This document shows positions 36,734 through 40,931 of a DNA stretch of 64,000 bases, one piece after another. Below the pieces are notes generated by a model, which saw nothing but the letters and a program-made list of their open reading frames with translations, was not told the origin of the DNA and searched no databases. The position numbers and the translations under genes were made by a program. Origin of the DNA: Alcanivoracaceae bacterium (GTDB taxonomy: Bacteria > Pseudomonadota > Gammaproteobacteria > Pseudomonadales > Alcanivoracaceae); contig JARGPU010000001.1 of assembly GCA_029210325.1 (NCBI GenBank), positions 1,126,126 through 1,190,125 on the forward strand. Direction: 5' to 3'. Numbering within the stretch: position 1 is the stretch's first letter; each line of letters begins with the position of its first letter.

Positions 36734-36807
36734 GTGGGCCCATGGTTTTGTCGAGATGAGTAACCATTCTGGGCAGATTTTCCGACGGTTGTCATCCTTG
36801 CATGGCC

Positions 36808-36849
36808 AAAAAAAAGCCGGGGTCGGCTGCAACCGACCCCGGCTTTTTT
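36808..36849. terminator. Strong terminator after DUF5666 copy B
   Basis: Stem GCCGGGGTCGG/CCGACCCCGGC flanked by A8 and T7 runs, so it can work in both directions. Its core is nearly identical to the terminator at 38534-38573, which follows the other DUF5666 gene. Confidence 0.93.
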
Positions 36850-36863
36850 AAGGATGTTGCTGG

Positions 36864-38330
36864 TTAGTCTTCCAGCTCCACTTCCTCGGCGGTAATTACG
36901 CTGCCATTGTAGCTGCCTTCCACCTCAACCACCGTGCTGTCTATGGTGATGGCCGAGAAGAAAGTGCTGGCACTGATGTTGTTATCGTTATCGTCCTCAA
37001 AGTCACTGGCAGACACATCTACCGGAACGCCAAGGATGCTCAGTGCGGTATTCGGCGTGGTGGCGGTGACCGGACCTTCCAGGACTACTTGCACGGGTAG
37101 TTCCAGATCAACGCGGGTAACTTCGGTAAGCACCAGCGTGTTGCCACTTTGGTACCCCTGCAGCTCCACATAGTCATTGATTGCCAGATCATCCAGGCCA
37201 AAGAAGGACTCTTCCGCTTCACTGTCGTCTTCGTAGCGAGTGCTGGTGTTGGACACCAGAGTCAAACCAAGCGCAGTGATTGTGCCTTCGTTAAGGGTCA
37301 GGTTGGTTGCAGTAATCGCTGAAACTTGAGCGTGCAGGGAAATATTCTCTTCCTGCTCGAATTCCACTTCATCAGCGATAATAACGCCTTCTGACCAGGT
37401 GCCTTCCACTTCGACGACTGCGCCGACCACCAGAAGTTCTGCATTGCCGCCGCTAAATTCGGCGCCAGGAGCAATGGTCACAGGGATGCCGCTAACGGCG
37501 ATCTGGCTGCTTGATGTGACTTCGGTAATCAGGCCCTTCAGTTCAGCTTCAACGCCATCATCCAGATCATCAAAGCCATCACTAAAGCCCTTGACGGTAC
37601 TTGCATTCAGAATGTCGCCATTCAGGCTGCCGCGTACGCGAACCGTAATGCCATTGGCGGGCGCATTACTTGGCAGTGCAGAAAGTGCAGCCGTGTTGTA
37701 GTTCACCTCCAGTCCATTGATCTCAAAGGTAAGGGCTTCGCTATTCAGATTAGATACCTTGCCGATAACCCGTGGCTCACTGACGTTATCTTCATAGCCG
37801 ACATAGGTGGCGATGAGCACGCCATCGCTAGCGATATAGCCACTCACTTCCACGCCATCTCCGACTTCAAGTCGATCGAAGTCAGTGCCGCCGATGGCAG
37901 AAGTGAAGCTGCTATCTATCACAGTGTTGGCACGAACCTGCACAGTCTGTCCCAGCGCATTGAAGCGTTGGTTATCCGCATCAAGGCTGGTGATGCTGGC
38001 TTTTAGCAGAGTTTCCTGAATGACGGTGTCCGCAATCGGGTTGCCGTTGCCGTCAATGCTGGACGATGTGATAAAGACAAATTCACCCACCTCAAGCAAG
38101 TCAGAGGTGCTCGGGTTGTCGTCAATTCGTACCAAGGTGTTGTCGTCGACAATATAGCGCCGGCCGTTTTGCAGAATGCTGCCAAATCCGCTGATCGGAC
38201 CAGCAGATGCGCTTGCTGGTACAGCACTATTGCCACCATTGCCTGCAGTTTGGCTATCGCCACCACAGGCCGTCAGCGCAACAAGGCTGGCCGCCGTCAG
38301 GCATTTCATCCAGGTAGTGGAAGTTTTCAT
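36864..38330 (-). CDS. DUF5666 repeat lipoprotein, copy B
   Basis: 488-aa predicted lipoprotein: signal peptide and lipobox LTAC (Cys22) followed by GGD. The rest is a chain of small beta-domains of the DUF5666 type (for example FGSILQNGRRYIVDD, GDGVEVSGYIASDG, VIGKVSNLNSEALTFEINGL), very acidic and probably Ca2+- or surface-exposed. About 80% identical by eye to copy A (38604-40058). Own promoter at ~38435-38485; AAGGAGAT ribosome site. Its ATG overlaps the stop of a relic DUF6502 frame. Function unknown. Confidence 0.85.
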   Translation of the reverse strand: MKTSTTWMKCLTAASLVALTACGGDSQTAGNGGNSAVPASASAGPISGFGSILQNGRRYIVDDNTLVRIDDNPSTSDLLEVGEFVFITSSSIDGNGNPIADTVIQETLLKASITSLDADNQRFNALGQTVQVRANTVIDSSFTSAIGGTDFDRLEVGDGVEVSGYIASDGVLIATYVGYEDNVSEPRVIGKVSNLNSEALTFEINGLEVNYNTAALSALPSNAPANGITVRVRGSLNGDILNASTVKGFSDGFDDLDDGVEAELKGLITEVTSSSQIAVSGIPVTIAPGAEFSGGNAELLVVGAVVEVEGTWSEGVIIADEVEFEQEENISLHAQVSAITATNLTLNEGTITALGLTLVSNTSTRYEDDSEAEESFFGLDDLAINDYVELQGYQSGNTLVLTEVTRVDLELPVQVVLEGPVTATTPNTALSILGVPVDVSASDFEDDNDNNISASTFFSAITIDSTVVEVEGSYNGSVITAEEVELED

Positions 38331-38419
38331 GGTTTATCTCCTTCGTTTTCACTTGGATAGATGCCCAAACCGACTTGGTGGTGCTGGTTACTGCTGTCGC
38401 TATGGGCGGTTGCTTCGGT
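38327..38419 (-). pseudogene. 3' remnant of a second DUF6502 gene
   Basis: Reading minus-strand codons before copy B gives ...DSSNQHHQVGLGIYPSEN followed by EGDKP-stop. It aligns with the C-terminus of the intact DUF6502 protein (DSTEHCRLGLGMYLIED, YGDKK-stop). The stop overlaps the DUF5666 ATG as ATGA in both copies. Everything upstream to the promoter (about 700 bp of the gene) is missing, so this is the relic left by an internal deletion after duplication. Confidence 0.75.
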
Positions 38420-38435
38420 CTAATTGATCTCTATA

Positions 38436-38452
38436 TGGGGAGATAATCCCCA
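38436..38452. promoter_or_regulatory. Putative operator, copy B (TGGGG-N7-CCCCA)
   Basis: Inverted repeat TGGGG AGATAAT CCCCA. On the minus strand its spacer and left arm overlap the GATTAT taken as -10, with TTGCCT 17 bp further upstream. The same dyad occurs before DUF6502 at 40883-40899. Confidence 0.6.
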
Positions 38453-38473
38453 AATATGAGTTATCAGGCAATA

Positions 38474-38484
38474 CCGTTCGTCGG
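38474..38484 (-). promoter_or_regulatory. Conserved 11-bp promoter box, copy B
   Basis: Minus strand CCGACGAACGG, just upstream of the -35 TTGCCT. It matches CCGACGAATGG at 40921-40931 and lies 21 bp from the operator in both copies. Confidence 0.5.
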
Positions 38485-38533
38485 ATGGCTATTTCCGGAT
38501 TCGAGTTTGTTGAGTTGCCTGGAATGCGAGACA

Positions 38534-38573
38534 CAAAAAAGCCGGGGTCAGACAAAGCTGACCCCGGCTTTTT
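38534..38573. terminator. Strong terminator after DUF5666 copy A
   Basis: Stem GCCGGGGTCAG/CTGACCCCGGC with a 6-nt loop, flanked by A6 and T5 runs; paralogous to the terminator at 36808-36849. Confidence 0.93.
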
Positions 38574-38603
38574 GACAGGTGCTTTTGGGTAGGTGCTTGT
38601 TGG

Positions 38604-40058
38604 TTAGTCCTCCAGCACCAGCTCCGCTTCTTCGGCAGTAATCAGGCTGCCATTGTAGCTGCCTGTCACTTCGACAATGCTGCTATCGATGGTGATGGCA
38701 GAGAAGAAAGCGCTGGCGTCGTCCTCAAAATCACTGGAAGAAACATCCACCGGCACGCCAAGTATGGTCAAAGAGGTATTGGGTGTGGTGCTTGTAACTG
38801 TACCGCGCAGGGCGACTACCAGAGGCAGGTCGATGTCCTCGCGGACAACCTCGGTAAGTACAATAGTGTCACCACTTTTAAAGCCGCGCAGCTCGACATA
38901 GTCATTCACTGCCAGATCGTCCAGTCCAAAGAGCTCTTCGTCAGCTTCGCTGTTGTCTTCATAGCTGGTGCTGGTATTGGAAACCAGAGTCAGTCCCAGT
39001 GCGCTAATGGCTCCTTCATTAAGCGTCAGATTGGTCGCGGAAATGGCTGTGATCTGCCCATTAATACGCACGTTGTCCTCCTGTTCGAACTCGACCTCGT
39101 CCGCCAGAATGCCGCCTTCTGACCAGATGCCCTCGACTTCAACAATGGCTCCGACAATCAGTTGCCCGGCATTGCCACCACTAAACTCGGCGCCGGCCTT
39201 GATCGACACTGGAATACCGTTCACCGCAATCAGGCTGCTGGAGCTGACTTCGGTGATGACGCCCTTGAGTTCAGCTTCGGAGCCATCATCCAGATCGTCG
39301 AAACCACTGCTGAAGCCCTTCACTTCATCTGCTTCCAGAATGTCTCCATCCAGGCTGCCGCGAACACGCACCGAGACACCATTGGCGAGCATGCCATCTG
39401 GAAGAGAGGACAGGCTTGCAGTGTTGTAGTCAACGACAAGTCCATTGATCTCGAAGGTAAGGGCTTCGCTGTTCAGATTGGACACTTTGCCAATAACCCG
39501 TGGTTCACTGACATTATCTTCATAGCCGACATAGGTGGCGATGATCACGCCATCGGCAGCAATATAACCACTGACTTCCACGCCATCTCCGACTTCAAGT
39601 CGATCAAAGTCAGTGCCGATAACGGCAGATATGAAGCGGGTATCTATCACGGTGTTTGCCCGAACCTGCACAGTCTGTCCCAGCGCATTGAAGCGTTGGT
39701 TTACAGCATCAATACTGGTGATGCTGGCCTTGAGCAAGGTTTCTTGAGTAACACTGTCAGCAATCGGGTTGCCGCTGTCGTCAATACTGGATGAAGTGAT
39801 AACGACAAATTCACCCACCTCAAGCAAGTCAGAGGTACTCGGGTTGTCGTCGATTAGTACCTGCGTGTCGCCGTCGACAATATAGCGCCGGCCATTCTGC
39901 AGGATGCTGCCGAACGCATTGATCGGGCCTGCGGAGACGCCTGGCGAGGGAGCGCCACTGCCATCGATGCCTGCAGTCTGGCTGCCGCCACCACAGGCGG
40001 TCAGTGTCATCACGCTCGCGGCGGTCAGACACTGCATCCAGCGAGGAAAAGTTTTCAT
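38604..40058 (-). CDS. DUF5666 repeat lipoprotein, copy A
   Basis: 484-aa paralogue of copy B: signal peptide MKTFPRWMQCLTAAS..., lipobox LTAC, GGGSQTAG linker, then serial DUF5666-like beta modules with motifs GEFVVITSSSID, VQVRANTVID and GVPVDVSSSDFED. It lacks a short N-rich insert near the C-terminus that copy B has (DDNDNN). Its ATG overlaps the DUF6502 stop (ATGA) and a GGAG site lies inside the DUF6502 end, so the two are translationally coupled. Predicted outer-membrane or periplasmic; function unknown. Confidence 0.85.
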   Translation of the reverse strand: MKTFPRWMQCLTAASVMTLTACGGGSQTAGIDGSGAPSPGVSAGPINAFGSILQNGRRYIVDGDTQVLIDDNPSTSDLLEVGEFVVITSSSIDDSGNPIADSVTQETLLKASITSIDAVNQRFNALGQTVQVRANTVIDTRFISAVIGTDFDRLEVGDGVEVSGYIAADGVIIATYVGYEDNVSEPRVIGKVSNLNSEALTFEINGLVVDYNTASLSSLPDGMLANGVSVRVRGSLDGDILEADEVKGFSSGFDDLDDGSEAELKGVITEVSSSSLIAVNGIPVSIKAGAEFSGGNAGQLIVGAIVEVEGIWSEGGILADEVEFEQEDNVRINGQITAISATNLTLNEGAISALGLTLVSNTSTSYEDNSEADEELFGLDDLAVNDYVELRGFKSGDTIVLTEVVREDIDLPLVVALRGTVTSTTPNTSLTILGVPVDVSSSDFEDDASAFFSAITIDSSIVEVTGSYNGSLITAEEAELVLED

Positions 40059-40867
40059 TTTTTATCTCCGTAATCTTCAATCAGATACATACCCAAACCG
40101 AGACGGCAGTGTTCCGTGCTGTCCTCGTCGCGGGCGCTTTGTTCCAATTGTTGGTTCAGCCAGTCGTCCAGCTTTTCCAGGAACTGCTGGCCCTGATCTG
40201 CCAGTAGAGTGTTAAAGCGTTCGGCTGTGGCGGCGTCCGCACCTTCGACCACAACGCGACGTTCAAATCGTTTGGCCTGTTTGTTATCGCGAGGATAAAG
40301 GTTGTGATTCAGGGTCGAGCCAAGGTCATGAATGACTTCGGTGGCCCGGCGAGTGGCGATCGGATCGTTGCCGGGAGGAATAAAGGTACGGGCACGGGCC
40401 GTGATCAGATCGCCATCCTGTGTGACTGCATTCAGGCGCAGCAATTCCTTCAGAAAGGCGGTATGGGGTACATCGCCGGCGTACTCCTTGAGCAGTAGCC
40501 AGAAATCTCCGGCAGTAGCGCTGCTTAACTGCCGCGCATTGCCTTGTCCGTCCGAGAAGCGCGCGTCCCGGTGCCAGCCGGACAGTACCCGGGTGATCCG
40601 GTCTGTACGTTCCACCGCAGGCTGGTCGCTCGCTTCGGCACGATGATCCAGCTGGCGTTTGATTTCCTTGCGATCAAGACCGGTGAGCAAACTGATGCGT
40701 GAGACATTGGTGGGCCGGCCATCCTTGCCAAAGTGGTCCGATGCCACGCATACGTACTCATGCTTGAGCAGGGCGACAAGCTCCTGATAGCTGACACCGT
40801 TCTCAAGCAACAGCCGGAGCTGGGGCCTGAGCATGTCAACGAATGGGGTCAGGTCTTTGCCGTTCAT
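40055..40867 (-). CDS. DUF6502 family protein, putative winged-helix regulator
   Basis: 270-aa soluble protein. Residues ~20-75 look like a winged helix-turn-helix (GVSYQELVALLKHEYV, then TNVSRISLLTGLDRKEIKR). The C-terminal region is helical with no recognised domain. No signal peptide or membrane segment. The ATG at 40867 has GGAG 7 nt upstream; a longer in-frame start at 40924 would begin upstream of the predicted promoter. First gene of a unit with DUF5666 copy A; an operator-like dyad lies 16 bp upstream of its start. DNA binding is inferred, not shown. Confidence 0.82.
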   Translation of the reverse strand: MNGKDLTPFVDMLRPQLRLLLENGVSYQELVALLKHEYVCVASDHFGKDGRPTNVSRISLLTGLDRKEIKRQLDHRAEASDQPAVERTDRITRVLSGWHRDARFSDGQGNARQLSSATAGDFWLLLKEYAGDVPHTAFLKELLRLNAVTQDGDLITARARTFIPPGNDPIATRRATEVIHDLGSTLNHNLYPRDNKQAKRFERRVVVEGADAATAERFNTLLADQGQQFLEKLDDWLNQQLEQSARDEDSTEHCRLGLGMYLIEDYGDKK

Positions 40868-40882
40868 GAGGTTCTCCGCATG

Positions 40883-40899
40883 TGGGGTAATAAACCCCA
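40883..40899. promoter_or_regulatory. Putative operator, copy A (TGGGG-N7-CCCCA)
   Basis: Inverted repeat TGGGG TAATAAA CCCCA. On the minus strand it overlaps GTTTAT, a candidate -10, with TTGCCA 17 bp upstream. It has the same arms, spacing and context as the copy B dyad at 38436-38452. Confidence 0.6.
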
Positions 40900-40920
40900 G
40901 ATAAGTGGCTTTTGGCAAGG

Positions 40921-40931
40921 CCATTCGTCGG
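40921..40931 (-). promoter_or_regulatory. Conserved 11-bp promoter box, copy A
   Basis: Minus strand CCGACGAATGG, 21 bp from the operator and directly before the -35 region; counterpart of the box at 38474-38484. Confidence 0.5.

Follow-up and report, generated by a model that had tools for sequence, protein, structure and literature searches.

Autoregulated repressor operons of the LexA or TetR type carry an operator over their own core promoter, and their satellite targets carry the same operator. The locus described here resembles them in having a predicted operator over the core promoter of a candidate regulator as well as satellite targets, but it differs in the protein family involved, in a 4-nt overlap between the regulator and lipoprotein genes, and in a regulator mRNA that is apparently leaderless in most lineages. 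The two proteins belong to DUF6502 (PF20112) and DUF5666 (PF18914), both families of unknown function; in the literature searched, DUF6502 was not mentioned and DUF5666 was confined to passing entries in lists and tables. The closest structural match of DUF6502 is HetR, the master regulator of heterocysts in cyanobacteria (Pfam Peptidase_S48 plus HetR_C). HetR binds GGG-N5-CCC through Arg62, Glu71, and Lys73 (PMC4192349, PMC4649674), and the region upstream of the HetR gene is among its targets (PMC4192349).

We analysed a window of 64,000 nt from the genome of an Alcanivoracaceae bacterium. With considerable confidence, we propose that DUF6502 is a helix-turn-helix autoregulator of its own operon and that a second lipoprotein gene, copy B, is a satellite target that arose by duplication and internal deletion. 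On this reading, a family present in several phyla but without described function would gain a predicted function, together with a defined DNA target and a small regulon. Copy B would be explained as a satellite of that regulon, still accompanied by what is left of its lost regulator gene.

Layout and origin of the duplicated unit

On the minus strand, the DUF6502 gene is followed by lipoprotein gene A, a terminator, the promoter and operator of unit B, a short leader, lipoprotein gene B, and a second terminator. The features are as follows:

40890..40918, minus strand: promoter A, predicted from sequence (–35 TTGCCA, 17 nt, –10 GTTTAT), with the layout of an 81-site consensus
40883..40899, minus strand: predicted operator A, TGGGGTTTATTACCCCA, overlapping the –10 region; one of two exact sites genome-wide
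40055..40867, minus strand: DUF6502 gene of unit A, 270 amino acids from the ATG at 40867 (PF20112, E 4.6e-44), predicted DNA-binding autoregulator
38604..40058, minus strand: DUF5666 lipoprotein A (PF18914, E 1.5e-38), lipobox LTAC ending at residue 22
38532..38574, minus strand: terminator of unit A
38443..38471, minus strand: promoter B, predicted from sequence (–35 TTGCCT, 17 nt, –10 GATTAT), with the same 81-site layout
38436..38452, minus strand: predicted operator B, TGGGGATTATCTCCCCA, overlapping the –10 region; the second of the two exact sites genome-wide
38328..38426, minus strand: relic of a second DUF6502 gene, corresponding to its 3′ end (local alignment score 67.5), which today serves as the leader of lipoprotein B and contains a separate Shine-Dalgarno sequence, AAGGAGAT
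36864..38330, minus strand: DUF5666 lipoprotein B, the satellite copy (PF18914, E 7.6e-40), 78% identical to A
36807..36849, minus strand: terminator of unit B

The start codon of lipoprotein A overlaps the DUF6502 stop codon as ATGA (4 nt). For DUF6502 itself, the ATG at 40867 is a more probable start than position 40924.

The coding sequences of the two lipoproteins are identical at 1124 of 1449 nucleotides (77.6%) and their products in 375 of 491 aligned amino acid columns (78% in a BLAST-type search), slightly below the ∼80% estimated by eye in a first-pass annotation made from the sequence alone. Its other observations on the flanks stood: both units end in near-identical GCCGGGGTC stems, and the promoter/palindrome block preceding B aligns with the block preceding DUF6502 at a level that 0 of 1000 shuffles reach. 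The DUF6502 relic before B is also real and longer than first noted, extending over about 100 nt from CAATTAG to the ATG. Its 41-nt core scores above all 500 shuffles, and its upstream half is weaker, its score being reached 17 times in 1000 shuffles and 20 times in 500. Examined for riboswitches and other structured RNAs, the B leader gave no Rfam match and a fold z of –1.56.

Relic, terminators, promoter, and orthology in a sister species (see below) support the first-pass proposal of a tandem duplication of the complete unit and a subsequent loss of most of the second DUF6502 gene. A different origin, in which a lipoprotein gene was set behind a copied promoter and the likeness of the leader to DUF6502 is coincidental, would fit the only moderate significance of the upstream half of the relic and the leaders of satellite genes in other genomes, in which no DUF6502 relic is evident. 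It leaves unexplained the 41-nt core together with the matching promoter and terminator, and, orthologs apart, no other sequence in this genome or its relatives comes near A in its similarity to B; we regard this origin as very unlikely.

The sister species Alcanivorax sp. 1008 contains orthologs of A (92%), B (92%), and DUF6502 (96%) with syntenic flanks on both sides. Its assembly breaks between the A and B orthologs, and the B leader was not found in it, apparently because it falls into this gap. Since A and B are each matched by a separate 92% ortholog in this species, the duplication is judged from these sequences to predate the species split. Its age is also apparent from the low third-codon identity between A and B, which is 0.34–0.55 in most windows and 0.69 at the 3′ end. 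In codons 50–200, this identity rises to 0.72–0.80, close to the ortholog value there (0.80–0.84). Gene conversion, at about the time of the species split or earlier, probably made this tract of the two genes (within 36864–40058 of the window) more uniform. Such conversion toward the N terminus combined with divergence elsewhere would fit a partial division of labour between the lipoproteins, which the first-pass annotation had suggested as an alternative to regulated dosage, but is no proof of it.

Copy B could also be a decaying duplicate whose operator survives merely because too little time has elapsed, and unit B has indeed lost its DUF6502 gene. The duplication is old, however, as judged from third-codon identity in most windows outside the conversion tract; both reading frames are intact, each with its 92% ortholog; and the operator arms do not differ between A and B, whereas neighboring third-codon positions agree at only ∼50%. 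Units consisting of operator and lipoprotein gene without DUF6502 moreover recur in other genomes. Decay is thus highly unlikely, and the earlier idea that retention of the operator reflects selection gains support from the exact arms and the recurrent satellites.

The predicted operator palindrome and its variants

A palindrome of the form TTTGGGA-N6-TCCCAAA over the –10 box is common to DUF6502 genes of Gammaproteobacteria, Nitrospirota, Desulfobacterota, and SAR324. Among 80 named DUF6502 loci from these four groups, 62 score at least 11 of 14 positions, compared with 22 of 800 random windows. A spaced dyad, TGGG-N8-CCCA, lies upstream of DUF6502 in 40 of 76 loci mostly from the window's class (2.6 expected). 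The strict consensus is scored below 11 of 14 in 36 of 76 DUF6502 genes of the class, and some other DUF6502 genes carry GGGA/TCCC dyads with different spacing. Palindromes of the TGGGA/TCCCA type with shorter spacing were seen at eight loci of a phylum-wide sample, mostly from other classes (L269, L271–L274, L279, L281, and L282), which suggests that operator spacing is lineage-specific.

The consensus of 81 sites has a TTGAC whose first base lies 15 nt ahead of the palindrome, followed at a spacing of 17 nt by TATAWT inside the palindrome; as far as the sequence tells, it is a σ70-type promoter with the palindrome covering its –10 region. In this set, the most frequent distance between the end of the 20-mer and the start codon of DUF6502 is 1 nt (34 cases), suggesting that the DUF6502 mRNA is leaderless in most lineages, unlike that of the window gene, which has a short leader with a Shine-Dalgarno sequence. 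The 5′ end of a leaderless RNA would coincide with the 3′ edge of the palindrome or lie past it, and we therefore infer that the palindrome acts as DNA rather than as an RNA hairpin.

Sites A and B belong to a variant, TGGGG-N7-CCCCA, and the exact sequence TGGGGNTTATNNCCCCA is found only at these two positions of the 3.03-Mb genome. Among the DUF6502 loci scanned, this variant operator occurs at three: the window, its ortholog in the sister species, and one other lineage. The same three loci are the only ones whose DUF6502 carries PTN...KRQ in the predicted recognition region. The pairing of variant operator and variant helix-turn-helix comes from two lineages, and one shared ancestry may explain it.

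The window's own genome contains a third DUF6502 gene (locus L048, C13:321000–331000), which carries an exact TGGGA-N6-TCCCA operator and is the only gene of this genome with TGGGANNNNNNTCCCA upstream. By eye, a gene resembling FadL/OmpP1 outer-membrane proteins takes the place of the DUF5666 lipoprotein ∼220 nt after this DUF6502, and a wax-ester-synthase-like gene lies upstream of it.

Candidate satellite targets and the proposed regulation

The exact motif TTGGGANTANNNTCCCAA is present in 25 of 276 genomes of the class, namely, in 24 of 79 genomes with DUF6502 versus 1 of 197 without it (Fisher p 1e-13, uncorrected for phylogeny). The single match in a genome lacking DUF6502 (L157) lies just behind a tRNA-like sequence and is a probable terminator hairpin. 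Among 27 loci with an exact site, the site faces DUF6502 in 7 and, in another 12, a DUF5666-type lipoprotein gene that stands alone without DUF6502; Pfam confirms 9 of these 12. Neither gene adjoins the site in 6 loci, the L157 hairpin being a seventh. Most of the stand-alone lipoprotein loci have a –35 region of the TTGA or TTGC type and a leader with a ribosome-binding site, and several of their sites lie 1.5–2.6 kb from a DUF6502 operon. Judged by its elements, this arrangement of operator and stand-alone lipoprotein gene is the design of copy B. At one locus (L176), an exact operator is located 2 nt before the possible start of a β-propeller lipoprotein (PF09826), a possible target outside DUF5666.

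The DUF6502 protein of the window matches PF20112 with 150.7 bits (curated cut-off, 27), and the lipoproteins match PF18914 above its cut-off with 135.4 and 131.3 bits in three to four DUF5666 stretches. By pattern match, lipoprotein A has a signal peptide whose lipobox ends in cysteine 22, a residue invariant in 46 aligned proteins, and the structural model of lipoprotein B (pLDDT 90.1) consists of OB folds in series. Judged by profile, a DUF5666-type lipoprotein gene follows DUF6502 in 55 of 77 loci, with an overlap of exactly 4 nt in 35 of the 55. These two genes are the only conserved ones of the module (70–71 of 80 loci); no further gene sought around the 80 loci exceeded 6 of 80.

The AlphaFold2 model of DUF6502 (pLDDT 85.6) contains a helix-turn-helix at residues ∼55–78 and a winged-helix-like second domain. 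DUF6502 itself, which the first-pass annotation had not considered in this role, is the likely regulator of the operator. We infer that DUF6502, probably as a dimer, binds the palindrome that overlies the –10 region of its promoter and thereby regulates its operon, which links it to a tandem-OB-fold lipoprotein. Because the predicted site covers the –10 region, DUF6502 is probably a repressor. The same protein would control satellite lipoprotein genes that carry the operator alone. In the window, the unit was duplicated in tandem; a deletion of ∼700 nt from the second DUF6502 gene would then have left an operator, a promoter, a ribosome-binding site, and a lipoprotein gene as a satellite of the DUF6502 that persists in unit A, with the relic now supplying the leader and ribosome-binding site of lipoprotein B.

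Alternatively, the palindrome could be the site of another conserved transcription factor, with DUF6502 having an envelope-linked, RNA-binding, or other role. The helix-turn-helix signal of DUF6502 is weak at the sequence level (sub-threshold matches in a few members), and folds resembling the winged helix also occur in proteins that bind no operator. Yet the motif is essentially confined to genomes with DUF6502, the operator variant tracks the variant of the predicted DUF6502 recognition region, and the modeled helix-turn-helix protein has a DNA-bound regulator as its best match; another factor is unlikely.

Comparison with HetR

In a Foldseek search of the PDB with the DUF6502 model, the four best matches, which extend over the full length, were all HetR, three of them DNA complexes (best E 1.9e-3, probability 0.98). 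VIA-align superimposed DUF6502 and HetR with a Z of 7.8, within the chance range, over 224 residues (rmsd 10.5); the overall rmsd of ∼10 Å possibly results from differing domain orientations. Of the HetR fold, which comprises an N-terminal helix-turn-helix, a flap, and a hood, the helix-turn-helix is predicted in DUF6502 too. Both proteins have 270–300 amino acids, and the GGG..CCC palindrome of DUF6502 resembles the GGGnnnnnCCC target of HetR. When aligned by eye, the L-x-R-K-E-V of DUF6502 corresponds to L-E-P-K-R-V of HetR, which would place the nearly invariant Lys67 at the position of Lys73.

DUF6502 differs from HetR in being found outside the cyanobacteria, in having no known PatS-type inhibitor, and in the position of its operator on the –10 region, which suggests repression. 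The spacing between GGG and CCC is 7–9 rather than 5: 8 in most DUF6502 sites, 9 in the window, and 7 in some loci of other classes. HetR was tried as a sequence homolog and rejected (hhalign probability 0.2, with HetR scoring among shuffles). Neither Peptidase_S48 nor HetR_C, both of which HetR itself matches, was found in the window's DUF6502 at E ≤ 1; an hmmsearch of PDB sequences with DUF6502 did not retrieve HetR, and a search of plasmids for further HetR relatives that would improve the profile yielded none.

We conclude that DUF6502 probably works like HetR at the DNA level, without filing it as a member of the HetR family. Homology is possible. With somewhat less than even confidence, we suggest that DUF6502 is a non-cyanobacterial branch of a HetR superfamily, an ancient and widespread autoregulator of envelope OB-fold lipoproteins derived from the same stock. 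If the two proteins are indeed homologous, the reach of a family known for a classic developmental regulator of cyanobacteria would extend well past that group.

The C terminus of DUF6502 carries a conserved GTGRxRAGxGIYYFE tail. HetR is inhibited at its hood by the peptide RGSGR, which the GxGR of this tail resembles, perhaps by coincidence.
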